Of a stretch of 64,000 nt of DNA, positions 10,901-62,679 are shown in pieces (position 1 is the stretch's first letter; every line of letters begins with the position of its first letter). The stretch is from NCBI GenBank assembly GCA_036172665.1, contig CM069870.1, positions 62,620,212 through 62,684,211 of the forward strand, given 5' to 3'. The notes beneath the pieces were generated by a model that had not been told where the DNA came from, searched no databases, and saw nothing but the letters and a program-made list of their open reading frames with translations. A program made the position numbers and the translations under genes. Origin of the DNA: Prosopocoilus inquinatus (Eukaryota > Arthropoda > Insecta > Coleoptera > Lucanidae).

Positions 10901-13336
10901 TGTTTGGTTGATAACGCTTACCCGATGTCAGGTGTTATTCCAACGGAGTGGCTCGTGCCCTTTCGACGACGAATAAGCGTTGATTTTGTTCATGGATCAG
11001 TGAATCTGCCGTGTTGAACGGATTACAGCCACATTGTTAGTTGTTATCCCAGCAGACTTTGAAACAGTTTGTTCGGTTTTGAGGGACGTGTGAATCTTTT
11101 CCGGCTTGATGTACATCAGCAAGGTAATGCCATGGTGGTTTTTCATTTTATTACTTGATTGTTTTCCACGTGCGTTGCGTTTACCGCTCGAGGTCGTACA
11201 TTTCACACATTATCTTCCTTGTAGCAAGTAGCCCCGGGCAGATTTCCACCGCCGATTCAGTGATTGTCGCCTCACTTATTCCTGTAAGCGTCGCTTGAAG
11301 GGACGTTACGTCATTTTCGTGTATTTTGTTGAGGAAAATAAGTGAGATCGTTCCCGTTTTCAGGCTGTAGCGGTCGTCTCGGAGGGATTGAACGAGAAAA
11401 TTCCTTCTTTTCTTTTCGTCCTCGGAAACGTGTTACTTGACGTCAGTATTTTTCACCGACGAATTCGATGGGAGGGTGACTTTGTTTGCTGTAATAACGT
11501 AGTCTGGGAAGTTTTTATCTCTTTTGTACTCATATAGAATTTATTTACACGGCTGTTGTGCCTTATTTTGCGGATTGTACTAGTATTTGTTAACTATTAA
11601 TTTTGACTTGGTTCTGAACAAAGTGCGAATTTACGTAATTTTGGAGCTTTTCCCCTTATTGTTTTTGATCGTTTTTTACTTTCATTCTAGTATGTGCGCT
11701 TCACGCCATAATATTTGGATACTTTTTTTGATATTAAGAGACTGTAAGCAATGCGAGAGTACTTAGGCGGATGCGCCAACACTCTTTGTTTCCGGCAATC
11801 TAACTTTGAATATTTTTGGTTTTTTTGCTGCCGCTAACCCTATTCGTGGTTGTGCACATTCACGTTCTTTTTATCTGTGTGCTTTAACAGACGTTTTCTT
11901 TTTGGCCGAGCCTAAACATCTTATAAGCGGAATTTATATTTCGAAAGGTCACCTCTGGGCTTTGTTTATAAATTTTAATTGGGATGTACGGGTTCTGGAG
12001 AACTGTACCTTCAGCAGACATATAAGGATATATTTTCCCAGCCCTTTATTTGTGGGTTCCGTAACATTTGCTGTGTGGCGATCGCCCGAAACTGTGAGTC
12101 AAAACGCGCTAAGCACTCCTTTCGTTATCATGTAACAGTAATATAACAGACTTTGACGGTCAATATTTATCTTCATTGGTATTTCTGGAATACCGCTTTG
12201 CTGATTCCTCTGTTGCTGACCTTTCGTACTTATATTGTGGAAGGTCTTCCTCACTTCCTATTTCTTTTCGTAGTTGCTACTGTTGATCGTCTCGTAGGGA
12301 TTGACTCTAGAAGAGTCGGCGAAGCACTTTAGTACCTCCTTTCAGCTACAGATGAAGGAATTATGATGCTTCAGTCTTACGATAGTTTATGCAATGTAAT
12401 AGTAGACTTTGGTGGCCTGCACTCAGCTTCATTGAGATTTTTGGTACACCGTTGGTGATACATCTGCTGCTGACGTTTCGTACCGTTTGGTTGTGGAAAG
12501 ACTTCCTCAGTTACGGTGCTGCAATTACTTTTCGTGTTGCCATTGTTCATCTTCTTGCAGAGACTGACCCTAGAAGAATTAGCGATGGGATAGTCTGGGA
12601 ACTCAAGTGCAACAGTAACTATCTGTATTAAATTAGTGATCTGCTTTATTTTAAATCGATGCTTACCTCTGCATATTGATAATTTCCAATTAAAAATCTG
12701 TTTTCTTTTTGAAAGATTTCCAAAATCAATTTCGGCGAAATGCTTTCCACTGTGGTCAGAGAAGGTAACGTCCAGCGCATCCAATTTATGATTCAAGCCG
12801 GCGTGTACGAATACGAAGACACCAAGAAGGGCAGATTAATACTCTCAGCAACTGAACATTCCCAGGTGAGAATCATCGAACTGCTCATTGAGAACTACGC
12901 CAACCTTGACGTCCACGGAAAAAACGGTTATAGCCCTTTACACTGGACGGCGTACAATGGTTGCGTTAAGTGTGCCAAATTATTGCTGGAAGGCGGGGCA
13001 GAAATCAATACCCGTGATAAATGGAAGGATACCCCTTTGATAAAATCCTCGAAATACGGCTACACTGAGCTGGTGAAACTGTTCCTTAGCAAAGGGGCTA
13101 GCGTCGTGGCTTGGCAAGAAGATGGTTACAATGCCTTGCACATGGCGGCTCGGGAAGGACGTGTTGAAGTTGTGAAACTCTTGCTGGCATACGGAGCTGA
13201 TCCCTCTACGGAAACCATGAAGGGATATACGCCGCTAGATTTTGCTATTAAAAACGACCATAAGGAGGTTATCGCCATCCTGGAGAAGAGGCTGATCGCA
13301 AAATTTGGAGAGCAAAAAGAAGAAAAAAAGTCGTGA
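4984..13336 (+). CDS. Gene A: signal-anchor, coiled-coil, ankyrin-repeat protein
   Basis: Not a named gene. Proposed exons: 4984-4986 (ATG only), 5107-5187, 5281-5328 (doubtful), 5619-5690, 5747-5818, 5871-5915 and 12716-13336. All are multiples of three with phase-0 borders and GT/AG sites, giving about 313 residues (297 without the doubtful exon). Residues 2-28 hold a strong hydrophobic run (TLLIFAALIFGICYMV), read as a signal peptide or anchor. The next exons are charged and helical (coiled coil). The last exon, about 206 residues, has about six ankyrin repeats with typical PLHW and ALHMAA cores and a Lys/Glu-rich tail. The final intron is 6.8 kb and full of repeats. The doubtful 16-codon exon lies inside a palindromic repeat. 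By family logic ankyrins bind proteins; the partner is unknown. Joining the 5' exons to the distant ankyrin exon is inferred from paralogs B-E. Confidence 0.7.
5287..5468. repeat. Palindromic MITE-like element overlapping gene A exon 3
   Basis: The left arm (from GACGGAATCACGAG, through ACGAATTCAGGTGA and ATGAGTCA, to GGGCTTGCAG) is mirrored by the right arm (GCGCAAGCCCGACTCATCAC to TGATTGCCGTC). Most of proposed exon 3 of gene A lies in the left arm. No coding capacity of its own. Confidence 0.6.
5916..7236. other. Intron of gene A, 5' part, no gene seen
   Basis: This T-rich sequence begins with the GTAAGT donor at 5916. A possible acceptor at 6157 opens only 22 codons before a stop. No recognised protein, RNA or repeat was found. 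Confidence 0.4.
7237..7381. repeat. Short MITE with inverted ends
   Basis: The left end GGCAAGTTACACCAAACACT is mirrored by the right end AGTGTTTGGTGCAACTGGCC. The internal sequence is about 100 bp and noncoding. Flanking duplication was not resolved. Confidence 0.65.
8259..9030. mobile_element. Noncoding element with long inverted ends
   Basis: The ends CAGAGAAGAATGAGAT and ATCTCATTCTTCTTCTCTG begin inverted arms of about 200 bp that share GTTGCAATATTGCACCTAAT and GGAAGATCGACTT-type words. The arms enclose about 350 bp of AT-rich spacer. No transposase frame is present, so this is a MITE or foldback type. It lies in the last intron of gene A. Confidence 0.65.
9625..11514. repeat. Three-copy tandem array, unit about 0.64-0.68 kb
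   Basis: Units start with GAGTGGCTCGT at 9625, 10267 and 10946; the third ends near 11514. The copies are close to identical apart from small deletions in the first (for example the GCCGTGTCGAACGG segment is missing). Weak open frames repeat in each copy and look like chance frames, not genes. The unit is richer in GC than its surroundings and lies in the last intron of gene A. Confidence 0.85.
12133..12630. repeat. Diverged tandem duplication, unit about 255 bp
   Basis: AACAGACTTTGACGG to GAAGGTCTTCCTCA in the first copy matches TAGTAGACTTTGG to GAAAGACTTCCTCA in the second, starting at 12388. The GCTGACGTTTCGT word also occurs in the hairpin within gene B, so this may belong to a wider dispersed family. 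Confidence 0.55.
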
Positions 13337-21013: not shown

Positions 21014-21825
21014 CAGTGGCGGCTCGTGATGATTTACTGCGGGTGGGCAACAACTGCAAAAGGGAAAGTGGGTGCATTTTCCAAATAAATTTGTTTTTCC
21101 GGACTTCTAATTTTTGGATTAAATTTAAGTGTGAGATTTAGTGAGCTTTTTTTCAACTTTCCTTTTACCAGAAAAAACATTTGACGAACGTCTTCTTGCG
21201 TTACAATCAAAATTCAAAAGCGCCGCGTTTTTTATTTGCTCAATTAATGAACTTTTCTCCCTTCCTTCGCGATCGCTCTTGCAATTTTTGAATTCAATTT
21301 AAATGAGGGATTTACAGAGATCTTTCTCAGCTTTCCAACCCCTTGTACCAAAAAACAATCGACGAACGCGTTCTTGAGTTACAATGAAAATTCAAAAGTG
21401 ACTTGCTCAATTAACTGAACATCTCTCCCTTCCCTTGCGATCGCGCTTGTAATTTTTTAATTCAACTTAAGAGTGGAATTTACAAAAATTTTTCTCAGCT
21501 CTCCAACGCCTTTTACCAAAAAACAATCGGCAAACGCATTCTTGAGTTACAATCAAGATTAAAAAGCAACGCGTTTCTTATTTGCTCAATTAACTGAACC
21601 TCTCTCCCTCCCCTCGCGATCGCGCTTGTAATTTTTGAATTCAATTTAAGTGGGGGATTTACAGAGCTTATTCTCAGCTTTCCAACGCCTTTCACCAAAA
21701 AACAATCGCCGAATCGACAACAACTGCAAAAGGGAAAGTGGATGCATTTTCCAAACAAATTTGTTTTCTGGGGGTTGCCCGGAGGAGGAACCGGAACGTA
21801 CAACTTCATAGACGAGCCGCCACTG
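21014..21825. mobile_element. TIR element with internal tandem repeats
   Basis: CAGTGGCGGCTCGTGATG at the left is mirrored by CATAGACGAGCCGCCACTG at the right, and an inner AACTGCAAAAGGGAAAGTGG word occurs near both ends. About three internal units of roughly 170 bp (starting near 21138, 21310 and 21485) share TTACAATCAAAATTC, TTGCTCAATTAACTGAAC and GCGATCGCGCTTG words. No transposase. No clear target duplication. Confidence 0.7.
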
Positions 21826-22834: not shown

Positions 22835-24348
22835 ATGGTGTTAATTCCAGTCGTTTCAAAATATTTCATGCGGATAACTTTCTTGTTTATTACTTTAAGG
22901 TGCACAAGTGCTTTAATAGAGGTACGTATAGTTTAAAAATTTACGAAAACTGGAATGAAATCATGACTTTTAGGTAGCAACTGGGTTTGATGAAGGGAAC
23001 GGCACAAATTTAAAGTTGCTAATTGTAGACTTTGCAAATAAACTTGAATCTATTGAGGTAATTATAGAATTTGTTTGGTGAAAGAAAAACTTTTTGGTTT
23101 CTGCTTCTTTCTTAGATTTCTTCTACTGCCGACGTTTCGTTTTTCATTGCAGAAGAACTTCCTCAGGGCTGCTGCTACTGGTGGTCAGTCTCATCGACTT
23201 ATAAGAAACAGCAGCAGACCATCACCAGCAGCAGCAGTACCACCACCACCACCACCACCAGCAGCCCTGAGGAATTTCTTCTGCAATGAAGAACGAAACG
23301 TCGGCAGTAGAAGAAATCCGAGACATGCGGTTGCAACCGGAAACCAAGAATTCAACAATTTGGGATGCCACAATTAGTTTTGATTTGTATAGGAAAGCTT
23401 CAATCTCTTAAATTTCTTCATCAAACAAAAATCGAATAATTCGTCAAATATCTTTCTTGACTTCCACAAATCAAAACACTTCCCCATTTTTTTTAGAAGC
23501 TGGAAAAAGAAAATGTGCAAATGTTACAACGCCTATCAGAACTGTCCTTGCGTCTATCCGACGCGATCGATGCACTGAGAGTATGTGACACAAAGTCGAA
23601 AGCCAACCAAAAAAAAATCCCACTCATTTTTAGATAAAACAGAACAAAATGGAACGCACTTTAAACAAAAATGCAATTGCCTTGCGGATGCTGCTCGAGG
23701 TACCTAAAACGTAAGTAGAATGCAAGAAGTGATTCTACAGGGTTTCTTTCTCCAAAGCCGTCCAAATTTGGTGACAAACTACATTCGGCCATTAAAGAAG
23801 GCGATTTGGAGGAGGTGGTTTTTCTGTTGGAATTGGGGGCGCCAATTGAGTATCAAAGTTCTAAGAACGACAGACCCATTCACGTGGCGGTGGAAAATCG
23901 ACGTCTCCAAATTTTGGAAGTGCTGATCGAAAACAGGGCTGATATAGAAGCTCACGGGCAGTACAATCGAACGCCCCTTCACTGGGCGGGCTATAGTAAA
24001 TGCTTGGAATGCACGAGGATTTTGTTGGATAAGGGGGCGAGCGTGACAAGTCGTGATCAATGGCTTAATACACCACTGATAGCCCCTGTGGTTGGTGGTC
24101 TTAACGAACAGGTTGAGCTCATATTGAACAAGGGTGCTGATGTCAATGCGGTTCAAGCACAAAAATACAATGGGGTGCATTTTGCTTGTCGTCAAGGGCA
24201 TTTGGACACTTTGAAAATTTTGATTAAACACGGAGCTGATTTACAGGCGAAAACCGTTTATGGGGAAACAGCTTTAAGTCTTGCTAGAACTAACGGTCAT
24301 GTTGAGATTGTCAATTTTCTTGAAAATGAATTGAGTAAAAGGCAGTGA
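22835..24348 (+). CDS. Gene B: signal peptide, coiled coil, ankyrin repeats
   Basis: The clearest member of the cluster. Exons: 22835-22921, 22974-23057, 23497-23580, 23634-23699 and 23758-24348, all phase 0, giving 303 residues. Introns are 52, 439, 53 and 58 bp. The N-terminus is a signal peptide; Met12 (22868) gives an even better one (MRITFLFITLRCTSA) and may be the true start. Exons 2-4 encode helical coiled-coil segments (e.g. KLEKENVQMLQRLSELSLRL). Exon 5 has about six ankyrin repeats with RPIHVAV, PLHWAGY and NGVHFAC cores. A Cys-x-x-Cys (KCLEC) sits in the third repeat, as in A, D, E and F. The acceptor after CTCCAAAG (23757) was chosen over 23750 because it keeps phase 0. The AATAAA at 24369 follows closely. 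Function unknown; secretion and protein binding are inferred. Confidence 0.88.
23121..23312. repeat. Hairpin with CAG/CAC runs in intron 2 of gene B
   Basis: The left arm TTCTACTGCCGACGTTTCGT is mirrored by ACGAAACGTCGGCAGTAGAA, with arms of about 54 bp running through TTCATTGCAGAAG and CCTCAGGGCTGCTG. The loop holds CAGCAG and (CAC)n triplet runs. The word GACGTTTCGT also occurs near 12467. Confidence 0.75.
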
Positions 24349-32844: not shown

Positions 32845-34390
32845 ATGTGCAACAGGCGGGTTAATTTGTTGGTAAGTTTGCTTCTTTGTAAACTTGGCAA
32901 CATTCCCTGGAAGTGACGTTAATGCGCCGTTTGAAAACAAGGTTTTTCATTGGCGTGATGTAATCACAGTCGCCGCTTTCTGTTCTTTGATTGGCCAGCC
33001 ATGTTTGCTGAGAACGTGAGTTACGGCTGCCATCTCGGACACGCTTTACATTGCTTCGTGACAAGACAGAGCAAGGATGTATTCGTTGTCGATCGTGAGA
33101 ATCCGTGTAAAATTGTATTATAAGATTTATCTAAACAGATTGACTGGAATGAAATAAGCTCTACGTGTCTTTTGAGGTATTTTTCAAGCATTCTTGCCAA
33201 TGGATTGAAAAAATTCATGGAATCTAAGGTATGTGGTACGATCTTTAATCGTGAGCATGAGGTCACACATTTCTTTAAATTGTATTCTAGATTTCTTTAG
33301 ACATTTCAATATCTAAGAATGATTGTGATTTAATTAAAACGGGAACCATTCTATATAATAATTACTGCAAACTTTTCCAGACAGCAAAATTCAGAGTTGA
33401 CGTTGTTCGAACAGTCCACTTATTTGCAACCTGTGCTACTCTTTAGAAATAAAAGTTAATAATTTTCTATTTATGTTTGGTTTTCAGGAAAGAGCAGCTG
33501 CTCCAATTGCTAGACAAAATGTCGCTATTTCTCTTATAAATTATTTTTTATTTCAGATTGAAGAACGTTTCTATGAAAAATTGGATAAACTTGCAAAGAC
33601 ACACCACGTACGTTCGCACACATTTCACCTCCAAGACCCCCAATAAAATAAATATATCATTATATTCCAGACTCAACAAGGTAAAACACAAGAAGCCTTA
33701 CAGAAGATCAACGTGACTCTTCAGTTGTTGTTAGAGGTAAGTCGCCAATTCGATTTTTTTGTTATTGCACTACTGATTTCCCTTTTTTTTTTTTGAAAGG
33801 CTGCCAATTTAAATCTCGGTGAAATGTTGGTAACCTCGTCGAAAACCGGAGATCCCGATCGTGTTCGTTTACTCTTAGATGCAGGTGCCGACGTTGAATA
33901 CCAAGATTCAAATGGTAATAGATCCTTGCACGCGGCCGCTGAGAACAATCACCCAGATATCCTGGCCATACTGATAGACTATAGGGCTGATGTTGATTCC
34001 CGTGGGCGAGATGACCTTACAGCTCTTCATATTGCAGCGGAAAAAGGGTACCTCAACTGCGCCCGGATTCTATTGGAAACAGGAGCAAGTGTTGAGGCCA
34101 GGGATAAATCTTCAGTGACCCCTCTGATGAAATCCGCTGTCAACAGCCACGCAGAAATAGCTACTTTATTGGTTGCCAAAGGGGCTGATGTGAATGCGAT
34201 CGGTCCGTTCCATTTCACAGCTTTGCATGCAGCTGCTTGGCATGGGTGTTTGGAGTGTGTTGAGATTTTAGTGCGAGCCGGTGCTGAACTCAACTTGCAG
34301 AATGGATCTGGATTTACGCCGTTAGAATTGGCGGAGCAGAGGGGAAACAAAGAAATAATTGGTTTTCTGAAGAGTAAAGCAAGAAATTAA
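32845..34390 (+). CDS. Gene C: coiled-coil, ankyrin-repeat protein
   Basis: Well-supported exons: 33139-33228 (30 codons), 33557-33607 (17), 33671-33736 (22) and 33800-34390 (196 plus stop), all phase 0. The last exon is 591 nt, exactly as long as that of gene B. The proposed first exon 32845-32871 (MCNRRVNLL, GTAAGT donor) is weak; with it the protein has 274 residues. Exon 2 contains a moderately hydrophobic CLLRYFSSILA, but no clear signal peptide is visible. Exons 3-4 are coiled-coil (EALQKINVTLQLLLE). The last exon begins AANLNLGEM, as A and E do, and has about six ankyrin repeats (SLHAAAENNH, ALHIAAEKGY, ALHAAAWHG). It lacks the Cys-x-x-Cys of repeat 3 (GYLNC) but has HGCLEC in repeat 5. 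AATAAA lies at 34481. Function unknown. Confidence 0.78.
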
Positions 34391-42400: not shown

Positions 42401-44165
42401 TTTTTGAACTGTTTTATAGATTAATAAATATCTACCAAAATTAATTATAATTTGCTCGATATCTTATAAAAATTAAACCATTTCGAAAGAAATTGGCTTT
42501 AGGTTTCTGTTCTGACCTAAACTATTGCTTAATTTATCTCAAGTAATCCATTTCAAAATATTACTTTTGTACCCCAGTGTACTTAGGCACTTGAAAAAAT
42601 GGGTTAAAGAATTTTTTGATGATTTCAAAAATAGGGAAGTTGCGGAAAACATTTCTTGGGAACTTTTAACTGTTCATATACATTTTGATATCTGCACAAA
42701 CTAGTCAGAACAGAAATTTAACTATCAATAAACGGCTAATCAAGGCGAACCAAAACCATTAGTGGGTCATTAATGTTCTGGAAAGGTTTTATATAATTAT
42801 AATTTTGTAGGACATTAAGCAGTCCAATGCACAAAACACTGCAGGGATTCGAAGACAATTATCCGAACTGCCCTTGCTTCAAAAACCTCAGGTAAAAGTT
42901 TTCTTTTATGACCCTTTTTTTTGTTAATTAAAATTGTTCATCCTCTTTTCAGGAAAAACAAGAACCAGAACACGCTTCGGACGAAGAACTTTTATTATTG
43001 AAGGTAAGAGTTTTCATTTTAAAATCGGTAGTTCCGATATAATTTGTTCTACGAAACGATTACGATTCCAGGAGCTAAAAGATTCTCTTCCACCGATTTT
43101 TGAACAGGGTTTAAAGTTGTCAGACGCAATCCAACGAATAGAGGTAAACGAAATTGTGTAAATTAAAAACAAAAAGTTGCTTAATACTTGTTTTTTTTTT
43201 TGAAGTCAAAACTGTCCAAAATAGAAGAAACATTAAATAAAAACGAACAGGATACTCCTTCAAGAGCTCCGTATACTGAAGCAGACGCGGCGGCGATACG
43301 GTGGCGTTCAGGCTCAACCGGAGGAATCAATTCGTTCCAAAGTTACCATGACCGTGACTTTGGCCAGTACGGTTTGAGTTCCCCTGTACTGATAGAAGTA
43401 AGTAGTTTTGACTGAAAGACTTAAACTTAAGAAATAAAATTGATTTGTCACAATCAAATCTTATAATTTTTCCTGTCAAGATTTTTTCATTTATCACCAG
43501 AAGTCTTTTTTTAATATCATGCTTACTATTAACAATAAAATCATAAGGGCAAATTTAAAGTGTGCTTTGTTCAAAAGTCTTCCAGATTTGATCTCGGCAA
43601 GCAGTTGCTATTTGCAATTAAAAATGGCGATGTTGAGCGAGTTCGTCAACTACTCGGAGACGGTGCTCCCATCGAATCTGAAGACTTTAACAAAAATAGG
43701 CCTATTCATATTGCGGTGCAATACCACCGCTCCCGAATATTGGAAACCTTGCTTGAGAAAAGCGCAGACATTGAATCCCATGGAAAATACCAAATGACCG
43801 CACTACACACGGCTGGTTACTACAATTGCACGGAGTGCGGGCGAATCTTGATAGACAAAGGGGCGGATCTTGAAAGTCGTGATCAGTATGGTAACACCCC
43901 GATTATGTTTGCTGCCAGGTCCGGACTTGACGAGCTTGTAGAGTTATTGCTTGATAGCGGAGCGAATACAAATGCTGTGAATTCCAATGGATGGACTGCT
44001 TTATATTGGGCAACAATGGGAGGACGGTTTTCAACTGCGACACTTTTATCAAGGAAAACTGGTAATTCATGGGGGCTTCCGGTATCAGATGGCACGATAC
44101 CTTACAATCTAGCTGATTACTATAGACAGCGTTCAACTTATGATTTTCGTGGCGAAACGAATTGA
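39473..44165 (+). CDS. Gene D: signal-like, long coiled coil, ankyrin repeats
   Basis: Ten exons, all phase 0: 39473-39475 (ATG only), 39539-39583, 39652-39714, 39776-39859, 39947-40012, 42811-42891, 42953-43003, 43072-43143, 43206-43397 and 43578-44165, giving 414 residues, the longest of the cluster. Exon 2 (IVWYFSSLIIALQTV) is hydrophobic and reads as a signal peptide. Exons 3-8 are mostly helical coiled coil (EIKETNSENAVTFKKELLEQ, ELKDSLPPIFEQGLKLSDAI). Exon 9 (64 codons) starts as coil but then becomes a Ser/Gly/Tyr-rich linker found in no paralog. The last exon has about five good ankyrin repeats (RPIHIAV, ALHTAGYYNCTEC, TALYWAT) and a C-terminus that no longer looks like an ankyrin. 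Intron 5 (2.8 kb) hosts a hAT element. AATAAA at 44182. Function unknown. Confidence 0.85.
40101..42296 (-). mobile_element. hAT element inside intron 5 of gene D
   Basis: The ends CAGTGGCGTAACTAG and TAGCTACGCCACTG are inverted, flanked by GCTAGAAG and GCTAGAAT (7 of 8 bases). The right end, reverse-complemented, matches the left end of the 16176 copy, including GGCAACCCGGCGCTAAGACGCC split by small changes. The T-rich interior has many chance open frames and no recognised transposase. Confidence 0.85.
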
Positions 44166-49431: not shown

Positions 49432-51702
49432 ATGGACCACTCTTCCAATATTTTAGAAAAATTAGAGGTATGGCGAAGCAAATCCTATGAATTACTATGA
49501 AACACAAACTTTTCTTTTACAGTCGAGGTTCGCCAATTTAGAAAGCAATCTGGACCGTAATTTAAAAACTACACATCTACTATTACAGGTAAGCAAAATC
49601 TAAGTAACTGCAAACCAAAATTCTAACTTGAGTACTCGGGAGAAATTGATATACGTCAGTTTCTTTTGAGATTTCCCGAGTACTCAAATTAAAATTTGAA
49701 AGTGACATACAAATCTTTTCTCGCGAGATTTCCTGAGTACTCAAGTTAAAATTTTCACGAATAATCAATAAAACTTCTAATTCACGCGAACTGGGAGGGT
49801 AAATTGGAAATTAAAGCCGCAGTCCTACTGATCCATCGCGGATAATCATGCACAGCGAATAAAATATTAAACCAATGAATTTCGCACTTTTTGACAGAGT
49901 ATATCCGTAACTGGTGCGACATTGGTTGAAAATTTTAATCGTTTTTCATTTTGGTACCAAACTACTAGAAACTTTCAGTTGTTTATTAAATATTTACAAC
50001 TAAAAATGACTATTTCCTCAAAAACTTGTCGAATTTGAGAACTGGACCCTACAAACTGTATATATAATTATTCATATTCAAAAAATTTGCACTTATTGAC
50101 ACAGTATATCCATAATTAATGCGACATTGCTTTAAAATATGATTCGCTTTTCATTTTGGCACCAATCAACTAGAAACTTTCAGTTTTTTGTTAAATATTT
50201 ACATTTAAAAATTACTATTTTCTCAATAACTCGTCGAATATCAGAATTGGACACTATAAACCGTATATCATTGAAAAGCTTCTCAAAAAGGCTATGGAAT
50301 GTTGTGAAAATATACAGGGAGTTCTATTTGAAAAAATGGAGTTTTTGTTATTTATAATTATTCATATTCAGAAAATCGTAGCAAGCTTTGGAACATCCCT
50401 TCACGACTTGGCTTGATCTCAATGATTGACCACAGCCTTGGTATTGACTGAAATAAAATCCGTTGCGTTATCTTTAGTGCTTTAGAAGTTACGAATTTTT
50501 GAATGGAACCTCGCATCCGGGAATTTTCAAGAAAATATTTACTAACATCAAAAAATATGATTGATACGTAAAAATGACTCAAATAAATTTAACGCAGAAT
50601 TTAGTGTAGAATCCCAAAATGAAGTCAAAATGGGATGTTTCAATTTAAAAAACCTAACTTTAATATTTTTATAATACTTGCACACCCTGTATATAAACAA
50701 AAATAATTTTAAAATTTGCAATGGAAACGCTCCTATTATACAAAAAAAGTTTGAGTCGATACCTGTAATAGCAAGAAAGTTATGGAACTTTTACGGAGCT
50801 CTGGGACATCCTGTACATACTTCTTTAATTTCAGGAAATTAAAGAAACTGGAATAAAGAATGAAAAGGTTTTACAACAACTGTCAGATTCAATTCAACAA
50901 TTAGAGGTATGTACTTATTTACTTTAAACCATGTGTTAGAATTTTTTTTTTTCAAAAAAGAGTACTTATAAATTATTTTCAATAAAATTTGTTTATTTAC
51001 AGACCAAGTTGTCTAAAATGGACCAAACGTTAGACAAAAACCTTCTCGGCGTGCGTTTATTACTAACGGTAAAGGAGGGGAACTGGAATCGTCTTAAAAT
51101 AACTTGGTTTCTAATTTCAGTTTTCCCCCCCGAATTTGGGAGAAATGTTACTTTCCGCCGTAAAAAATGATGACATTCGGCAGGTGCTTTTCCTCTTGGA
51201 AATTGGCGCAAACAAAGAATATGAAGATGCTAAAAAGAATCGGCCGATTCATGTGGCAGTGCTGCACAGGCGTCCTCGAATCCTGAAGGCGTTACTAGAA
51301 AAGAAGGCCAATATTGAATCCCATGGGGAATATCAAAAAACCGCCCTGCACTTGGCGGGTTATAGCAAATGTTTGGAGTGCGCAAAGATTTTGGTTGATA
51401 AAGGCGCAAATGTGGAAAGTCTCGATCAGTGGCGTAACACGCCGATTATACATCCGTCCAGAATCGGTTTTAACGAGTATGTGGAATTAATGCTTCAACA
51501 CAGAGCCAATGTGAATGCTCAACAGATGTACAAATGGAGTGGATTACACTACGCCGCACAAGATGGACCATTATCCACGGTGAAAATTTTGGTGAAGAAC
51601 GGTGCTAACGTAAAATTAAAGAATAATAATGGACAAACTCCACTGGAAATAGCTGTTGACAAAAAGCGTTATTCAATTGCTGACTTTCTTCAAAAACTTT
51701 AA
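49432..51702 (+). CDS. Gene E: coiled-coil, ankyrin-repeat protein
   Basis: Exons: 49432-49467, 49523-49588, 50835-50906, 51003-51068 and 51121-51702, all phase 0, giving 273 residues. The start MDHSSNILEKLE lacks a signal peptide. Its C-terminal half aligns with the end of the 21-codon exon 3 of gene D, so an original signal exon may have been lost or lies unseen upstream. Exons 2-4 are coiled-coil (SRFANLESNLDRNLKTTHLL, EIKETGIKNEKVLQQLSDSI). The last exon begins FSPPNLGEM and holds about six ankyrin repeats (RPIHVAV, ALHLAGYSKCLEC, GLHYAAQ). It is most like gene F, sharing long blocks such as GEYQKTALH and CLECAKILVDKGA. Without a signal it would be cytosolic. No clear poly(A) signal was seen nearby. 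Confidence 0.82.
49617..49756. repeat. Inverted and direct repeats in intron 2 of gene E
   Basis: CTTGAGTACTCGGGAGAAA (49625), TTTCCCGAGTACTCAAA (49671) and TTTCCTGAGTACTCAAG (49729) form one inverted and one direct pair around GAGTACTC. Probably a small MITE remnant. Confidence 0.5.
49877..50275. repeat. Tandem duplication, unit about 210 bp, intron 2 of gene E
   Basis: ATTTCGCACTTTTTGACAGAG (49878) to CAAACTGTATAT matches ATTTGCACTTATTGACACAG (50087) to TAAACCGTATAT, with ACTAGAAACTTTCAGTT in each copy. Confidence 0.7.
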
Positions 51703-52760: not shown

Positions 52761-53002
52761 TAAACTCCAACGAAATTTTAATCCACCAGGGTACCACGTT
52801 AACTCCAGCTGAAATCATAGAATTGCAAACGGTCAAACCACTACTACGAAACCATCTATGCTTTGTGTTTGTCGTAGGATACAGGCAAGATAATAGGGCC
52901 GCTGCCCCCACACAAACACATCATCATATTCTGGGGATATCGAAACAATCAACGCTACATGCTCGGAATTCCACAGCCAACTTTTTAATATAAATAAAAT
53001 AC

Positions 53003-53328
53003 TGTTACGTTTCTAGGGTTTGAGTTTATTTATTTAAACGAATAAAACACTCGATAAAAATTTAACCGTAATTTAATGAAGCTTAAAAACTAATTTATTT
53101 CTAACAATTTATTTTCACACTAAAATCTAACTTCGACTATCGCTGCTCGAATTCGACTGACTGGTGAGTCAACTCCGGGCCATTTTATATCATTGCTGGC
53201 GTCTGGAAGTCTCGATGCTGGAAGATTCTAGTTTGCTCGATACAGGCCCCGAACGCGTGACGGCCGATGACACATCGAAGCGGACCGACTTCCTGACGCC
53301 TTGCGCTAAGTCAGGTTGGCTCGCCACA
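53003..53328 (-). repeat. 3' LTR of the gypsy element
   Basis: It runs from TGTTACGTTTCTAGGG to GGCTCGCCACA on the + strand, 326 bp. It contains the last codons and the stop of the long open frame (stop at 53311-53313). Confidence 0.96.
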
Positions 53329-56300
53329 CTGCCCCCTTCTTAGAAACGTTTCGTCTCGAAATGTTCCTGGTGATAGTCTTGAAGGAGGGTGTCGGAATCT
53401 ACATGCTGGCCCATTCTTGCAACTTCCCGCCTGGAAGAAGTAACAGTCTACGGTTTTGCTGTTGCTGACTGTTGCCTGTGGGTGGTGGCTGCAGACTAGG
53501 ACTTCAATTCCCGTTCTGTGGAAGATGACTTCCAGCATGCTTCGAATTACTCTCCAGTCTAGTCCGTCCAATCCGCAGCCCAATTTGGGGATGGCTAACT
53601 TCATCTGATGGGTCTCTATTAGCTGTCTCCTCAGGCTATATAGGGCTCTCCACATACTTTGATAGTCAGGTTTACCGCTTGATGTCTTCTTAGTGACTAA
53701 ATAATGCACGTGGCGCCTCCGATCTGCCGTCGAATCAACGATCTGCAAGCTCTTGCCTACCACGGGATGCTGTCTTCGTAGCTCCTCGATTTGGCCAAAT
53801 TTCTTCTTAAACACCTGAGCGATTCCTTTGGACATTTTCAGGTCTTCTGCTACGCAGTGGGCCAGACTGTACTCCAGTGGCACTTTAAAGAGATCTTGTT
53901 GCTTCTCCGTGGTCACTCCAAACCGTGCCTTGCTTCCTTCGGCGTGATGAGACATGAAGGTTTCGAAGTTCACTTCGGAAACTTGCGCCCTTTGTACTGT
54001 CCCTTCATCTGCTTCTCCATGGTAAGGGGCTATCCGGTTGAAGTGGATTACTTTGGGTTTGCCATGGGGGACCTTCCTGATGCGGTAAACGACGTCGTTG
54101 ATCCGTTTCATCACTTTGTAAGGACCTTCCCAAGAGGTCTGTAATTTTGGGGAGAGGCCTCGACGTCTTTGGGGGTTATAAAGCCAGACCAGTGCTCCAG
54201 GTTGGTATCCCCCGTGTTGAGCGTTGATGTCATAGTGCTCCTTCATCCGATCGCTGGCCGTCTGTATATTGTGACGCACTTGGTTGTGGATATCATTCAT
54301 TTTCCTGCGTAATTCGCTCACGTAATCTTCGTCGGCAGAGACTTCGCCAGGCTTCACACCAAACTTCAGGTCGCAGGGCAGTCTCGGCTCTCGCCCGAAT
54401 ACCACTTTCCCGGGAGTCTCCCCTGTTGTCTCATGAACAGATGAGCGGTATGCCATTAGAAACAGGGGGATGTACGTGTCCCAGTCCCTCTGATGATTGG
54501 AAACGACCTTGGACAAATGTCGGTTGATGGTTCTATTGAACCTTTCCACCATTCCGTCCGACTGTGGGTGGAGTGCAGTTGTTCTAGTTTTTCGTACGCC
54601 GAGCAGAGTACACACGTTCTTGAACAAGGCCGATTCAAAGTTCCTTCCTTGGTCTGAATGCAGTTCCATAGGTGCACCATACCGACTGATCCATTCCCTG
54701 ACAAGGACTTCCGCAATAGTGACTGCCTCTTGGTTAGGTAGGGCGTAAGCTTCAACCCACTTGCTAAAGTAGTCCATTACCACGACGATGTACTTGTTTC
54801 CGCCATTCGTTTCTGGAAACGGGCCGGCTACATCGATGGCAACTCTCTCAAAAGGACTTCCAACGTTGTACTGTCTCATGGGAGCCTTACCCCGCCTGTG
54901 GGGGCCGTTACTGGCTGCGCAGACTGCACACTTTCTGCACCAATCCTTCACGTCTTCCTTGCAATTCACCCAGTAAAATCTTTCGCGCACCTTCTCCATA
55001 GTCTTCTTAACTCCCAGATGCCCTCCCGAAGTTCCATCGTGAAGTTCCCTCAGAACTTCTGGCACCCTATTCTTGGGGATCAGTAACTGTGTCTTCTGTT
55101 CCATGCCTTCTGGATTCTCCATGCTTCGTCTCAGAAGACCACGATCCAACACTATGGAGTCCCACTGCGCCCAGTATGATTTTACGGACGGTGCACATGG
55201 TGCTACCTCTTCCCAGGTAGGCCTCGCGTCCCTCCTTTTCCATTCTAGCACTAATTTCAAATCCGGGTCGTTCTCCTGGTCTCTTCGCAGTTCTTCGCCT
55301 TGCCATTTGTCATCAACAATGGCTGTCCTCGCAGTCGTGGCTAGTTTCTCGTCCAAACGACTACAGTGCTTACAGTCTTCGGCACAGGGTCTTCTCGACA
55401 GAGCATCGGCATTTCGATGGCTAGTTCCTGCCCGATGCTGAATTTCAAAATCGTACTCCTGAAGTCGTTCGATCCATCGTGCAACTTGCCCTTCTGGGTT
55501 CTTGAAACGGAGAAGCCATTTTAGAGCGGCGTGGTCGGTCCTCAGCAGGAAGCGTCTACCATACAAGTACTTGTAAAAGTGTTCTATCGTTTTTACGACG
55601 GCTAGCAATTCCCTTCTTGTGACGCAATAGTTTCGTTCCGGCTTTGATAGGACTTTACTGAAGTAGCCGATCACCTTCTCTTGCCCCTCTTGTATCTGGG
55701 AGAGTACGCCACCAATCCCAACGTTGCTAGCATCTGTGTCCACGACGAACTTGCCTTCCGGGAGAGGATAACTCAGAATAGGAGCACTAACCAAGTACTG
55801 CTTTAGTTGTTCAAAGCCAATTTGACACTGCTGGTCCCATTCAAATGGACGACCTTCTTCAGTGAGTTTTGTCAACGGCTTAGCAATGTCTGCAAATCCA
55901 GGAACGTAGCGCCGATAGTAAGTGCACAGGCCAAGGAAACTCCTTATTTGGTGTTTATTTCTGGGAGTTGGCCAGTCTTTCACCACCTGAATCTTCACAG
56001 GGTCCACGGCGATTCCATTTCCATTAACAATGTGCCCCAGGTAATTCACTTCCTTCTGGAACAGGTGACACTTCTTGAGGCTAAGCTTTAGTCCAGCTCC
56101 GCGAAGCCGCTGGAACACTCCTTCCAGGTTCCTTAGGTGGTCGTCGAACGTCTTTCCCACGACAATTATGTCGTCAAGGTACACCATGCACGTTGTCCAG
56201 GACAAACCTTTCAGAACCGTCTCCATTAACCTCTCGAATGTCGCTGGGGCATTACATAATCCGAATGGCATCACTGTGAACTGCCACAGACCCATACCAA

Positions 56301-59124
56301 TGGAAAACGCCGTCTTTTCTCGATCTTCGGGCGCCAGCTCCACTTGCCAATATCCACTCTTTAAGTCCAAAGTTGAGAAGATCTTTGAGCCGGCCAGGGT
56401 GTCCAGGGTATCATCAATCCGTGGCAGGTGATAGCTGTCCTTCTTGGTGACATTGTTGAGTAACCGGTAGTCTACACAGAATCTGGTGGACCCATCCTTC
56501 TTCTTCACAAGCACTACTGGTGACGCCCACGGGCTGCTTGATGGTTCTATCACATTATCCTTTTCCATCTCGCGAATAATGCGTTCCGCTTCCTCACGCT
56601 TTGCCAGCGGTAATCGCCTTGGAGCTTGACGGATAGGTCTTTCTTCTCCAGTCTCTATTTTGTGTTTCACGACATCAGTTCTTCCCTTGGATCCATCTTC
56701 TACCTCGAATACATCTTGATAACGGCCGATCAGATTCTTTGCTTTTGTCTTCTGGTCTGGAGTCAATTCCTGGGCTGTTGACATAACCATTTCCCATAAT
56801 TTCTTTGGGACTTTCGCTTCTGGCACGTTTGTTTCAAGTTGCCGGGAGATGGAGGACACCATGGTGCAGCTTCCCAAGATGGTTCCTTTCTTGATATTGA
56901 CGGAGAAACAATTGACGTTCATCAGGCGGACAGGTACTTCCTTCTTCGCCGTCAACAACATTTTTCCAACGAGGACTCCTCTTCCAATCCTTTGATCATC
57001 AGTATTAGGTTCAACCATAATGACTTGCCCATCTTGAAAAACACCGTCCAGTTTTGCGTCGACGATAACCTCAGTCCTGCTGGGTAATACAACGTCTTCA
57101 GCGAGGACTACTCGAGCGGCCACGTCCCCTCGTTGATGTAGAACCAACTCCTCATTATTGACCGCCATCACGCCACGCTTTAAGTCCAATTGGAACCCGT
57201 GGGCACACATGACGTCCATGCCCAAAATTGCCTCGTCCTCTATATCTGCCACCAGTGCACGGTGTTTTATTGGAGTTGAACCAATGGTGATGATAACCTC
57301 TACTTCCCCGTGGACAGTTGCTGATGTTCCAGTTGCAGTTTTCAGTTTCCACTTGGTCGGCTCGGTGCGTCCAGATGACTTAATGACGTCGGGTCTTAGG
57401 ATGGTCTTCGTCGCACCCGTATCCAACAACATGGTGTGAGGAATGTCATCAATGGTGACATCCACGAAGACACTGCTGGTTAACTGCCGTAGGAATATTA
57501 CTTGGTTGGCTTTCGTCTTTGGGGGCCTTTGAATACGGGTCGACGTTTGCCCCTCTGCACCGACCCGGCTTAGTTTAACTGTGGCTTCCTTGGATCCTGT
57601 CTGGGCTTTGGACATCGCCTGCGAACATGTCCTTCCTCCTGGCCACACCAGCGGTTTCTTCTGCTTGAAGACCTGTTCCACAATGCGGCGAACATCCTCG
57701 GCGGTGGTATACTCCCTGGGTCGCTCCTTTATAGCAGATCCCACCTTGGCGTTAGCGGATTCTTCCTCTTCTTCCCCTTGGAAGTCCATGGCCGCTCGCA
57801 CCTTGACATGCCCTCTTGAGACTCGTCTCGCCGCTTCAAATTCCAAGGCATAAGCCAATGCGTTCTTGGACGTCTTCGGATGGGTCATTCTCAATGCCTG
57901 CTGGTTGTCTGGGTCACGGATTCCATCTATGAAGGTCTGCACCGTCAAACATTTGAGGAATTCAACAGGAGCTGTGGGATATGCCAACTGGGCCAGACGC
58001 GCAACGTCTGCTTCGAATTCCTGAAGAGTTTCTCCGGATTTCTGACAGCGATTCCTCAACTGCGCATGGTATACCTCGGTCAGATGGGCCTGTCCGTAAC
58101 GCATTTCCATCCTATTCACCAGCTTGTCGAAGTCTTCTTGTTCCTCTGGCGGCATCGTCTGTAGCACATCGATAGCGTCCCCTCTCAAGGCCACAATTAA
58201 CGAAGTGGCTTTTTCGCTGGCCGTCCATCTGTTCGCCTTTGCTGCTGCTTCGAACTGTTTGAAGTAGTTGGGCCAAGAAGACTTTCCATCGAACGTTGGT
58301 GGTTTTATCTTCAGTTTAGAATTTTCTGCTGGTCCTTCCACAATTCGGGTTTCATTATTTTCTAGTGTTTCTACTGGTGGCTGATCCCCGAACACTCGCA
58401 ACCCCGCCATGATTTGTTCTAGATTTTTGATTTTATTATCCTGCTGGAATATTATTTCTTCCACATTTTCTTGCAAGTTCCTTGTTTCTTCCGATATTTT
58501 TACCACTAGTTTATCTTCGAGTCCCTTCGTCTGTTCTAGAAATTCACCCTTCAAATTTCCGGACTGTTCTAGAAGTTTCTCGTCGAAATTTCTAGATTGC
58601 TCTAGAAATTTCTCGTCTAAGTCTCTAGATTGTTCCAACAATTTATTCTGTAATTTATCGAAATTTCCAGATTGTTCTAGAAGCTTCTCCTCTAAATTTC
58701 TGGATTGTTCTCGAAGTTCGTCCTTGAATTTTCCAGATTGTTCTAGAAGCTTTTTCTCTAAATTTCCAGACTGTTCTTGAAACTTCTCGTCCAAATTTCT
58801 GGATTGTTCTCGAAATTCGTCCTTGAAATTTCCAGATTGTTCTAGAAGTTTCTTCTCTAAATTTCCAGACTGTTCTTGAAACTTCTCGTCCAAATTTCTG
58901 GATTGTTCTCGAAATTCATCCTTCAAGATTTTATTAAAATCGACGGGACCACACGAAATTTCGAAAAGGAACGTCTCTGGATCTTCACCAGCTGTCAACA
59001 AATCGGATCGGAGACGCTGTTGAAGTGCGCCTTTCAAACCACAGGTTTCTAACTCTCGTTCTTCCAATTCGGTTTTTAATTCGGCCACTTTTAAGTCTTT
59101 CAACAACAGTTTTCTCGTAGCCAT
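53311..59124 (-). CDS. Gypsy Gag-Pol with SAP, macrodomain and CCCH finger
   Basis: One uninterrupted 1937-residue frame. Domains: SAP-like DNA-binding helix pair (about 5-45); coiled coil of 11-residue EQSGNLEKKLL-type repeats (about 66-240); Gag core (about 274-435); aspartic protease (LLDTGAT, Asp568); RT (about 838-1030, YLDD 982-985); RNase H (Asp1129, Glu1172, Asp1197); integrase (His1362, His1369, Cys1399, Cys1402; Asp1431, Asp1491, Glu1527, a D-x35-E spacing); GPY/F (about 1664). After integrase comes a macrodomain (about 1740-1882) of the TARG1/OARD1 type with SLAHC, GIAQVFKKKFG, TKK (Lys1812) and GCGLD (Asp1853), then a C-x7-C-x5-C-x3-H finger (1894-1912). No CCHC knuckle was seen in Gag. 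Gag, protease and Pol share one frame, so no frameshift is needed. The frame is intact and probably functional; catalysis by the macrodomain is inferred. Confidence 0.95.
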   Translation of the reverse strand: MATRKLLLKDLKVAELKTELEERELETCGLKGALQQRLRSDLLTAGEDPETFLFEISCGPVDFNKILKDEFREQSRNLDEKFQEQSGNLEKKLLEQSGNFKDEFREQSRNLDEKFQEQSGNLEKKLLEQSGKFKDELREQSRNLEEKLLEQSGNFDKLQNKLLEQSRDLDEKFLEQSRNFDEKLLEQSGNLKGEFLEQTKGLEDKLVVKISEETRNLQENVEEIIFQQDNKIKNLEQIMAGLRVFGDQPPVETLENNETRIVEGPAENSKLKIKPPTFDGKSSWPNYFKQFEAAAKANRWTASEKATSLIVALRGDAIDVLQTMPPEEQEDFDKLVNRMEMRYGQAHLTEVYHAQLRNRCQKSGETLQEFEADVARLAQLAYPTAPVEFLKCLTVQTFIDGIRDPDNQQALRMTHPKTSKNALAYALEFEAARRVSRGHVKVRAAMDFQGEEEEESANAKVGSAIKERPREYTTAEDVRRIVEQVFKQKKPLVWPGGRTCSQAMSKAQTGSKEATVKLSRVGAEGQTSTRIQRPPKTKANQVIFLRQLTSSVFVDVTIDDIPHTMLLDTGATKTILRPDVIKSSGRTEPTKWKLKTATGTSATVHGEVEVIITIGSTPIKHRALVADIEDEAILGMDVMCAHGFQLDLKRGVMAVNNEELVLHQRGDVAARVVLAEDVVLPSRTEVIVDAKLDGVFQDGQVIMVEPNTDDQRIGRGVLVGKMLLTAKKEVPVRLMNVNCFSVNIKKGTILGSCTMVSSISRQLETNVPEAKVPKKLWEMVMSTAQELTPDQKTKAKNLIGRYQDVFEVEDGSKGRTDVVKHKIETGEERPIRQAPRRLPLAKREEAERIIREMEKDNVIEPSSSPWASPVVLVKKKDGSTRFCVDYRLLNNVTKKDSYHLPRIDDTLDTLAGSKIFSTLDLKSGYWQVELAPEDREKTAFSIGMGLWQFTVMPFGLCNAPATFERLMETVLKGLSWTTCMVYLDDIIVVGKTFDDHLRNLEGVFQRLRGAGLKLSLKKCHLFQKEVNYLGHIVNGNGIAVDPVKIQVVKDWPTPRNKHQIRSFLGLCTYYRRYVPGFADIAKPLTKLTEEGRPFEWDQQCQIGFEQLKQYLVSAPILSYPLPEGKFVVDTDASNVGIGGVLSQIQEGQEKVIGYFSKVLSKPERNYCVTRRELLAVVKTIEHFYKYLYGRRFLLRTDHAALKWLLRFKNPEGQVARWIERLQEYDFEIQHRAGTSHRNADALSRRPCAEDCKHCSRLDEKLATTARTAIVDDKWQGEELRRDQENDPDLKLVLEWKRRDARPTWEEVAPCAPSVKSYWAQWDSIVLDRGLLRRSMENPEGMEQKTQLLIPKNRVPEVLRELHDGTSGGHLGVKKTMEKVRERFYWVNCKEDVKDWCRKCAVCAASNGPHRRGKAPMRQYNVGSPFERVAIDVAGPFPETNGGNKYIVVVMDYFSKWVEAYALPNQEAVTIAEVLVREWISRYGAPMELHSDQGRNFESALFKNVCTLLGVRKTRTTALHPQSDGMVERFNRTINRHLSKVVSNHQRDWDTYIPLFLMAYRSSVHETTGETPGKVVFGREPRLPCDLKFGVKPGEVSADEDYVSELRRKMNDIHNQVRHNIQTASDRMKEHYDINAQHGGYQPGALVWLYNPQRRRGLSPKLQTSWEGPYKVMKRINDVVYRIRKVPHGKPKVIHFNRIAPYHGEADEGTVQRAQVSEVNFETFMSHHAEGSKARFGVTTEKQQDLFKVPLEYSLAHCVAEDLKMSKGIAQVFKKKFGQIEELRRQHPVVGKSLQIVDSTADRRRHVHYLVTKKTSSGKPDYQSMWRALYSLRRQLIETHQMKLAIPKLGCGLDGLDWRVIRSMLEVIFHRTGIEVLVCSHHPQATVSNSKTVDCYFFQAGSCKNGPACRFRHPPSRLSPGTFRDETFLRRGQCGEPT
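53329..53341 (-). promoter_or_regulatory. Polypurine tract of the gypsy element
   Basis: On the minus strand AAGAAGGGGGCAG directly precedes the 3' LTR. It would prime plus-strand DNA synthesis. Confidence 0.8.
53389..53445 (-). other. CCCH zinc-finger segment of the gypsy protein
   Basis: Residues 1894-1912 read CYFFQAGSCKNGPACRFRH, the C-x7-C-x5-C-x3-H pattern of RNA-binding CCCH fingers. With no Gag zinc knuckle seen, it could serve in RNA binding (inference). Confidence 0.85.
53479..53907 (-). other. TARG1/OARD1-type macrodomain in the gypsy protein
   Basis: Residues about 1740-1882. This macrodomain class (TARG1, ALC1, Poa1p relatives) binds ADP-ribose, and TARG1 removes it from acidic residues. 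In human TARG1 catalysis uses Lys84 and Asp125. Here Lys1812 (in TKK) and Asp1853 (in GCGLD) have the same context and the same 41-residue spacing. The flanking blocks SLAHC and GIAQVFKKKFG fit the ligand-binding loop region. Confidence 0.88.
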
Positions 59125-59205
59125 TGTTTTTTTTTTCGATACTGTACTTATTTAATAATCTGATTAAATTTAATTTACTTTAAATTGTTTATTTATTTGC
59201 ACAAA

Positions 59206-59222
59206 CCCGCACACCGACACCA
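59206..59222 (-). other. Candidate primer-binding site
   Basis: One base inside the 5' LTR the minus strand reads TGGTGTCGGTGTGCGGG, starting with the TGG complementary to a tRNA CCA end. The tRNA species was not identified. Confidence 0.55.
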
Positions 59223-59223
59223 C

Positions 59224-59549
59224 TGTTACGTTTCTAGGGTTTGAGTTTATTTATTTAAACGAATAAAACACTCGATAAAAACTTAACCGTAATTTAATGA
59301 AGCTTAAAAACTAATTTATTTCTAACAATTTATTTTCACACTAAAATCTAACTTCGACTATCGCTGCTCGAATTCGACTGACTGGTGAGTCAACTCCGGG
59401 CCATTTTATATCATTGCTGGCGTCTGGAAGTCTCGATGCTGGAAGATTCTAGTTTGCTCGATACAGGCCCCGAACGCGTGACGGCCGATGACACATCGAA
59501 GCGGACCGACTTCCTGACGCCTTGCGCTAAGTCAGGTTGGCTCGCCACA
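59224..59549 (-). repeat. 5' LTR of the gypsy element
   Basis: 326 bp, TG...CA, identical to the 3' LTR except for one base. It should carry the promoter for minus-strand transcription; no TATA box was evident. Confidence 0.96.
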
Positions 59550-59553
59550 ATAC

Positions 59554-61408: not shown

Positions 61409-62679
61409 TTGTCTGTCAAATATGAAAGCAGTTCAAATAGAGTCTTCCCGAAAGTACTGCAAAAATTGGAGGTACTTAAATAACGAAACAAAATTCTGAA
61501 AGACTTCTTTCTAAGTAAATACTAATTTTGTAGGAAATAAAGGAAACGATTTCAGAAAACGCGATTAAACAATGAATATTGTAGATTGGTTTATACATCG
61601 AAAGGTTTTAGTGTGATTAAATAAAAAATATTTACGTACATAGAATTAAATAATTAATTGCATGCATAATTGTTAATTATTTTTTTATTACTTAGTTCCA
61701 GTTAAAGCAGAACAAATTGGAAGACAATATAAATGAATGTCTATCTCAGTTGAACAGTTGAAGGTATGAAGTTGTTTGAACCATTGCCAAAATGTCATTG
61801 GCTCAAACGAATCTCGTAATTAGTAATTTCTAATTTTAGGAAACCGAAACAAAAAGCGAGAAGGTATTGCAACAATTGTCCGAGCAGAATTTAAAATCGA
61901 TTAACATTGTTCAACAGCTAGAAGTACGTACTCCAGGAAAGCTATAAATCAGAATTTTGTTTAAAAGTAACCTAAGTTCCCATTTGCAGGCAAAGCTTTC
62001 TAAAATAGAGCAAACATTACACAGAAATACTCTTGGTATTAATTTGCTGTTAACGGTAGGAAACGGACGAATGAAATGTGCTATTTGAGAATTTTGTTTT
62101 TAATTACAGTCGTTAATTTCTGCCATAAAAAATGGTGACATTCAACAGGTGCTTCTTCTTTTGGAACTTGGTGCAAACATCGAATATCAAGATGGAGAAG
62201 GTGACAGGCCGATTCATGTGGCTACACTACATAATCATCCCCGAATCGTGGAAATATTGCTTGAGAACAAGGCCGACATTGAATCTCGTGGGGAATACCA
62301 AAAAACTGCATTGCATGTAGCTGGCGACAGTGGATGTTTGGAGTGTGCAAAAATCTTGGTAGACAAAGGAGCTGATGTTAATAGCCGCGATTCTTGGACT
62401 AACAGACCACTTATACATCCCGCAAGGGTCGGCTTTAATGAATTTGTGGAGTTAGTACTTCAGAAGGGAGCGAATGTGAACGCCGTAAGGTCTGATGGAT
62501 GGACTGGATTGCATTGGGCAGCACGGAATGGGCAGTTATCGACGGTGAAACATTTAGTAAGGAACGGTGCTAACGTACATTTGAAGACTACCGATGGTAA
62601 AACTGCTTACGATATCGCTCTTTCAAACAACCACAATTTAGTTGCTGATTTTCTTAAAAAAAGCGATGTGGAAACTTAA
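61409..62679 (+). CDS. Gene F: coiled-coil, ankyrin paralog with decayed 5' half
   Basis: Intact phase-0 exons: 61409-61471 (21 codons, aligns residue for residue in length with exon 3 of gene D), 61840-61923 (28), 61990-62055 (22) and 62110-62679 (189 plus stop). The ankyrin exon (RPIHVAT, ALHVAGDSGCLEC, GLHWAARNG) is close to that of gene E but starts 12 codons later in the fold, lacking the NLGEM lead. Upstream, ATG|GTAACA at 61263 mimics the ATG-only first exon of A and D. The following signal-exon relic (about 61300-61332) has lost its AG acceptor. The exon at 61534 stops after EIKETISENAIKQ, and one near 61700 has a frameshift. Either these exons are skipped or the gene is dying. No sure start codon. 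AATAAA at 62707. Confidence 0.65.

Follow-up and report, generated by a model that had tools for sequence, protein, structure and literature searches.

A TARG1-type macrodomain within the Pol frame of a Ty3/gypsy-type retrotransposon of Prosopocoilus inquinatus and of related elements in beetles

What is a macrodomain of the TARG1 type doing in the Pol protein of a retrotransposon? The question is raised by a stretch of 64,000 nucleotides from the beetle Prosopocoilus inquinatus (Coleoptera; Lucanidae), i.e., positions 62,620,212 to 62,684,211 of contig CM069870.1 (GenBank assembly GCA_036172665.1), here called the window. An initial annotation, made from the letters of the window, had proposed that a gypsy retrotransposon carries such a domain, with its catalytic pair, in the open frame of the integrase, and a CCCH zinc finger. 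We found in the window a Ty3/gypsy-type element that is present in many recent copies. Its Pol has acquired a cellular macrodomain of the TARG1 type, which is retained, mostly with the catalytic pair, across one clade of elements in beetles. Gypsy elements gained a TARG1-like domain at least three times, and probably four times.

Long terminal repeats (LTRs), a target-site duplication, a polypurine tract and the order protease, reverse transcriptase (RT), RNase H and integrase place the element in the Ty3/gypsy type, as the initial annotation had it, and the identity of its parts is almost certain (Table 1). The two LTRs differ by a single mismatch (positions 53061-53080 compared to 59282-59301). 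The single open frame runs through Gag, protease, RT, RNase H, integrase, macrodomain, CCCH finger and polypurine tract into 18 nt of the 3' LTR. The predicted fold of the tail, i.e., the part of the frame behind the integrase, is that of a macrodomain, with TARG1 closest, and the alignment recovers the catalytic pair of TARG1; the proposed macrodomain is thus confirmed by both, and the CCCH finger by its score above the curated cut-off. The identity of the window macrodomain is 36-37% to TARG1, compared to about 14-17% to the solved RNA-virus macrodomains listed, whereas the NCBIfam DarG model matched at E 9.6e-12 but stayed, at 44.8 bits, below its cut-off of 250. A 54-row macrodomain tree separated seven prokaryotic and phage rows from 47 rows on the animal TARG1/OARD1 side (support 100/100). 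The same split in a 64-row tree had a Shimodaira-Hasegawa-like approximate likelihood ratio (SH-aLRT) support of 97 when L087, a prokaryotic row with a long branch, was included and fell among the animal rows, and of 80 when L087 was left out. Of 140 tail-bearing proteins, many of which are near-copies from a single beetle, 136 have an intact lysine/aspartate pair; P0147 reads R, N at the two sites, P0149 K, N and P0095 K, G, and P0136 is cut off. In a selection of 27 representatives, the pair is intact in 25. The window-type macrodomain is likely to have the predicted hydrolase activity.

Table 1. Parts of the element, in positions of the window.
Feature	Position	Strand	Remarks
Complete LTR element	53003..59549	-	6,547 bp; GTAT target-site duplication at 59550-59553 and 52999-53002
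5' LTR	59224..59549	-	326 bp, TG...CA
3' LTR	53003..53328	-	326 bp, TG...CA; open frame stops 18 nt inside
Single Gag-Pol open frame	53311..59124	-	1,937 codons
SAP domain, Gag N-terminus	59002..59103	-	PF02037, E 2.7e-6
Tandem repeats in Gag, 33/99 nt	58531..58931	-	11-residue units rich in E, Q, L
Aspartic protease	57208..57465	-	PF13650, E 3e-10
Reverse transcriptase	56026..56508	-	PF00078, E 8e-28
RNase H	55453..55839	-	PF17917 and PF17919
Integrase H2C2 and rve core	54610..55080	-	PF17921, E 1.7e-20; PF00665, E 5.3e-11
Integrase p58 C-terminal domain	54025..54126	-	PF22938, E 1.2e-11
TARG1-type macrodomain	53485..53925	-	sequence alignment and predicted fold; about 150 residues
Lys1812 (aligns with TARG1 Lys84)	53689..53691	-	alignment
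Asp1853 (aligns with TARG1 Asp125)	53566..53568	-	alignment
CCCH zinc finger (C1894, C1902, C1908, H1912)	53389..53445	-	PF00642, 26.0 bits, cut-off 20.5
Polypurine tract	53329..53341	-	in-frame reading is the conserved C-terminal RRGQ

The tail belongs to a family of elements. A DNA search of the same genome gave at least 40 scored copies among 1,020 candidates, and in a protein search the best 150 of 1,490 matches, which were 97-100% identical, had no stop codon in the tail in any of the 150; 36 of these copies lie within frames of 1,867-1,995 codons (counted from the listing). In all 30 copies that were fetched, a full-length 3' LTR (82-100% identical) follows the tail at a constant distance, and in 27 of the 30 both the polypurine tract and the beginning of the LTR are exact. 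Past the 3' LTR, the 29 of these copies other than that of the window match the window flank at 23-30% ungapped, which is the chance level. Two objections foreseen in the initial annotation are thereby rejected: a single chimera, since many genomic copies carry the stop-free tail, and a host gene that is simply read through, since the tail lies inside the element with the LTR beyond it. A third, that the predicted fold might not be a macrodomain, fails on the fold given above. The search for other copies with the same tail, also proposed there, found them in this genome and in three further beetle families, Cerambycidae, Chrysomelidae and Lampyridae. Tail relatives made up 202 of 815 candidates in public proteins; the 120 listed come mostly from Aromia moschata and Molorchus minor, and additional searches gave others from Pyrocoelia pectoralis, Gonioctena quinquepunctata, Leptinotarsa decemlineata and Callosobruchus maculatus. 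It should be noted that the Leptinotarsa entry P0128, which is named OARD1-like, has an integrase C-terminus in the same protein and looks like a piece of an element; P0114 ('Klebsiella') and P0118 and P0153 ('Erysiphe') also look like pieces of the element clade, probably insect contamination of microbial assemblies.

On the Pol tree, the tail is confined to close relatives of the window element. We compared 120 listed Pol relatives, 24 with at least 69.5% identity of the compared Pol piece and 96 with at most 65.1%. Among the 24, 19 have the macrodomain (P0136 is cut off within it), two end before it (P0145, P0166) and three are without it (P0137, P0143, P0152). None of the 96 listed relatives at or below 65.1% has the macrodomain tail, and most of them end about 200 residues past the compared piece, near the integrase end. 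In a polymerase tree of 57 rows (25 clade rows and every third of the others, 32), the window element and its 24 relatives form one clade with SH-aLRT 100. The CCCH finger is less constant: it is absent in six macrodomain-bearing rows that group together within this clade, degenerate or absent in P0142, and in P0137 apparently only its end is left, behind a deleted macrodomain. The CCCH finger might be a substitute for a lost Gag zinc knuckle: a regular expression found no CCHC knuckle in the window Gag (57301-59124, minus strand), but P0091 has both CCHC and CCCH fingers.

The window family is not the only carrier. The same genome was searched with a dipteran OARD1 (P0126), and the best 150 of 1,300 matches were scored, of which 20 were read; 18 of these 20 loci are not of the window family and represent three further layouts. 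The layouts are the following: (i) lineage A/B/E, in which the macrodomain stands between protease and RT (Pfam protease and macrodomain in L189, L190, L197 and L198; RT behind the macrodomain in L189-L191, L201 and the pieces L209, L210, L216, L217 and L219); (ii) family C, which also has the order protease-macrodomain-RT, but belongs to a separate RT lineage (L193, L202; pieces L211, L215, L220), and whose macrodomain is missed by Pfam in L193 and weak in L202 (E 0.0072), with a BLAST identity of 41-42% to the window domain; (iii) family D, with integrase, macrodomain and a charged tail, and without the CCCH finger (L195, L196). Inspection by eye showed an intact lysine/aspartate pair at all 20 loci from these further families that were examined, L192 with its internal stop among them. 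The RTs of A and B are about 50% identical to that of the window element; the value is 47% for E, 46% for C and 60% for D; macrodomain-less 412-like elements reach up to 65%, over a partly different Pol piece.

Three of the four macrodomain-bearing lineages have macrodomain-less kin. The RT of family B has kin in this genome at 67% (L221) and 64% (L222). In L221, the RT linker comes directly behind the protease; the part of the B frame that contains the macrodomain, residues 184-525, is missing and no macrodomain was found. None was found either in the 1.7 kb upstream of the RT of L222. Family C has RT kin with a macrodomain before the RT (L223 and L224, 73% and 76%) and a relative without it at 58% (L225, in which 174 nt separate the protease from the RT side). 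In L224, only macrodomain and RT were seen, the protease side being interrupted by a sequence that resembles the window-family LTR. Eighteen listed rows of family C kin at 72-73% lie in 1,764-codon frames (one with a stop in the RT); L223 is the one of these read upstream, and three of them are spaced 11,482 bp apart on contig C5. For family D, no close macrodomain-less kin was found in the genome; the listing gives D copies and then rows at 60-61% that resemble the window family.

An RT tree of 48 rows shows four separate macrodomain-bearing lineages at two Pol positions, and the approximately unbiased (AU) test rejects a tree in which all carriers are grouped together (p-AU 5.2e-6). The fewest changes on this tree are six, with the truncated P0166 scored as of unknown macrodomain status and thus excluded, which is compatible with four gains and two losses. 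The trees were built from chosen rows. Among 12 RT pieces of the other families, nine gave a near-full RT match, L218 matched over 65 residues only, and L212 and L213, the pieces behind L198 and L197 (family E2), gave none; eight of the pieces were used in the RT trees, and L215 was excluded for its stop. One ancestral domain followed by many losses is disfavoured because the insertion points differ. Family D is a long branch on the RT tree, which makes the fourth gain less secure than the others.

Selection on the macrodomain was compared between families. Between A and B, the ratio of nonsynonymous to synonymous divergence (dN/dS) of the macrodomain is 0.13 (dN 0.186, dS 1.39), compared to 0.46 in the preceding linker and 0.32 in the part that follows; between E and E2 it is 0.23, compared to 0.41 before the domain. 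The values for E-F and E2-F are 0.18 and 0.19, and those in the C clade are near 0.13 to 0.18, with saturated synonymous sites. The macrodomain is under purifying selection between diverged families, where divergence permits the measure.

As to the source of the domain, the element macrodomains group with insect OARD1, away from prokaryotic and phage relatives, in both the 64-row and the 54-row trees. A scan of genome contigs found 60 loci, in records of bacteria or archaea, and one of viral contigs gave 111 matches, of which 80 were kept; identities were 26-44%, in all cases lower than those of the element kin (50-60%). The number of captures is another matter. In the 64-row tree, a branch with SH-aLRT 91 sets the 28 window-clade rows apart from the rest. 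In the best 54-row tree, families A-F are placed with two unnamed proteins and the cellular OARD1 of Diptera, and all 22 window-clade domains lie elsewhere (96/98); this arrangement is weak, the window-clade domains being together in 16% of bootstrap trees. Neither a single clade that unites all element macrodomains (p 0.31) nor one restricted to those of families A, B, C, D, E, E2 and F (p 0.375) was rejected by the AU test. Several host captures are therefore not established by the macrodomain tree. The AU results agree with one capture from a host TARG1 gene, followed by exchange of the domain among gypsy lineages by recombination; against it stand the best 54-row tree and the different insertion points in Pol, and we consider it a serious possibility without preferring it. 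Among the best 150 of 1,300 matches, 20 of them read, no host TARG1 gene was recognised, which says nothing on its presence.

What would the domain do for the element? According to passages in PMC7050489 and PMC5725667, TARG1 strips ADP-ribose from glutamate and aspartate and from 5'- and 3'-phosphorylated DNA ends, and its D125A mutant lacks that removal. The best overall explanation, to which we give somewhat more credence than doubt, is a packaged, Pol-borne de-ADP-ribosylase that acts for the element. As a part of Gag-Pol in these lineages, the macrodomain would be synthesised together with protease, RT and integrase and enter the particle with them. Host poly(ADP-ribose) polymerases (PARPs) that sense DNA ends would tag proteins, on glutamate and aspartate, and the terminal phosphates of the element cDNA; the element's own TARG1-type copy would reverse both tags at the cDNA and integration complex and thereby keep them fit for integration. 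The CCCH finger, in the part of the clade that has it, might help to hold the module on nucleic acid. Whether the element's own cDNA or integration complex is the main target is a matter on which our judgment is evenly balanced, and the domain may serve an arms race with host PARPs or the clearing of DNA ends.

Several observations weigh against this explanation. The substrate cannot be fixed from sequence. The domain is dispensable, as P0137, P0143 and P0152, judged from their protein ends, are without it; P0147 has lost both catalytic residues and P0149 and P0095 the aspartate, and L192 (family C) has a stop inside the macrodomain. Within the window family, the macrodomain has 12 nonsynonymous and 6 synonymous variants (pN/pS 0.55), and the integrase a pN/pS of 0.49 with five stops; these values are from the 22 ungapped copies out of 30, the other eight being excluded for gaps in the integrase. 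Among 18 pairs, dN/dS ranges from 0.25 to 0.83 in ten close ones; synonymous changes are absent from three (L205 and L206 versus the window, pN 0.020, pS 0; L190-L191), and one is saturated. The weak selection signal inside recent families and the losses within the window clade are what would be expected if the domain were a functionless passenger of chance capture. This is nevertheless very improbable, given that the catalytic residues are kept, that dN/dS is 0.13-0.23 between diverged families, and that the domain was gained in separate lineages and persists in three compared relatives whose macrodomains share only 53-61% identity with that of the window.

The main rival, which we consider rather unlikely, is counter-defence in trans: a released domain would strip mono-ADP-ribose from host proteins or element RNA and blunt a cytoplasmic antiviral PARP response. 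Pol is produced in limited amount and insects have few mono-ADP-ribosylating PARPs, which both count against it, as does the position of the domain within Pol, rather than in a separate ORF (open reading frame), in the lineages read. Its favourable points are the superfold common to RNA-virus macrodomains, the TARG1-like folds in Kadipiro virus VP8 and in thrips-associated virga-like virus proteins, and the RNA ends that the review PMC7050489 names, in one passage, among TARG1 substrates. An integrase-borne macrodomain might instead be a reader that directs integration by binding ADP-ribose on chromatin that is broken or PARylated. Chromovirus C-terminal chromodomains steer integration in such a manner, the macrodomain directly follows the integrase in the window clade and family D, and P0147 and P0149 keep the domain despite the lost aspartate. 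Such a reader is improbable, however, because the domain stands before the RT, off the integrase, in lineages A/B/E and C, and the pair is intact in nearly all representatives. The packaged enzyme is favoured over an integrase tether because the position in Pol varies while the linkage to Pol is constant.

The initial annotation knew of no described gypsy lineage with this layout. That part stood, as searches of the open-licence literature listed no description of a gypsy or other LTR retrotransposon with a macrodomain; for retroelements more broadly there is a retroviral precedent, since epsilon-like endogenous retroviruses of ray-finned fish carry macrodomain ORFs (a passage of PMC4977317, citing Basta et al. 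2009). The likeness is that of a retroelement that captured a cellular macrodomain gene. The fish case is an additional ORF of a vertebrate retrovirus, whereas here the domain is in frame within a gypsy Gag-Pol and in four lineages. As far as our searches reach, what is new is a retroelement macrodomain of the TARG1 type, inside gypsy Pol and convergent. Cellular TARG1 (OARD1, C6orf130) is a small, free-standing protein, in contrast to a domain of a retrotransposon Pol with, in the window element, a CCCH finger behind it. The macrodomains of alphavirus nsP3, coronaviruses and rubella virus share the superfold and the location inside a polyprotein of a replicating genetic parasite, but differ in their much lower identity to the window domain; a heading of the review PMC7050489 classes them as MacroD-type. 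RNA viruses are known to employ macrodomains as erasers. The DarG antitoxin macrodomain is placed in the ALC1-like class, as is TARG1, in the same review, but is a bacterial toxin-antitoxin partner and more distant from the window domain in sequence and fold. Ty3/gypsy elements resembling transposon 412 have in common with the window element the LTRs, the polypurine tract, the domain order and the p58-type integrase C-terminus, and differ in the macrodomain tail. The 412/mdg1 clade is a candidate placement: the name 412 stands on some relatives in public annotation, and the RT trees contained no named reference elements. As side observations, TARG1-like folds are present in BFVD in Kadipiro virus VP8 (A0A8E0KJF2, 43% identity) and in thrips-associated and Hubei virga-like viruses, possible further captures of TARG1; the open-licence literature searched had nothing on Kadipiro virus with a macro domain or on Drosophila PARP with copia.

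Further features of the window were as follows. The C-terminal LRRGQC of the Pol frame was rejected as a functional protein motif, being the polypurine tract and LTR start read in frame. A domain-profile scan up to E 0.1 found no chromovirus-type chromodomain at the integrase C-terminus, where the macrodomain and CCCH finger stand instead. There is no env ORF between pol and the 3' LTR, since the Pol frame enters the LTR and leaves no room, and no other minus-strand ORF of 120 amino acids between the LTRs. Rfam and tRNA scans of the 64-kb window gave zero matches. Six ankyrin-repeat ORFs lie on the plus strand (12740-13336, 23806-24348, 33824-34390, 43560-44165, 51136-51702 and 62149-62679) with a tandem-array-like spacing of roughly 8-11 kb, and the element is between the fifth and the sixth. 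Two plus-strand ORFs with RT pieces (RVT_1) at 1252-2870 are a second, broken element, and tandem repeats with units of 168 bp and 205 bp occupy 21104-21713 and 49878-50289.

A practical consequence of these results is that at least one OARD1-like beetle entry (P0128) may have to be read as part of an element. For the biology of the elements, the repeated gain in Pol, with the catalytic pair mostly kept, yields a testable claim, namely that retrotransposition is held back when cDNA ends or the integration machinery are ADP-ribosylated, and the related macrodomain-bearing and macrodomain-less families in one genome are natural test pairs. The separate uptake by other lineages hints that an ADP-ribose tag may hinder retrotransposition. 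We tentatively suggest a reason for the repeated uptake of TARG1-type domains by beetle gypsy elements, at two places in Pol: PARPs of the host, acting on cDNA ends or integration complexes, may hinder LTR retrotransposition quite generally in insects. The macrodomain would then be a convergent counter-PARP part of retroelements, corresponding to the macrodomains of viruses.
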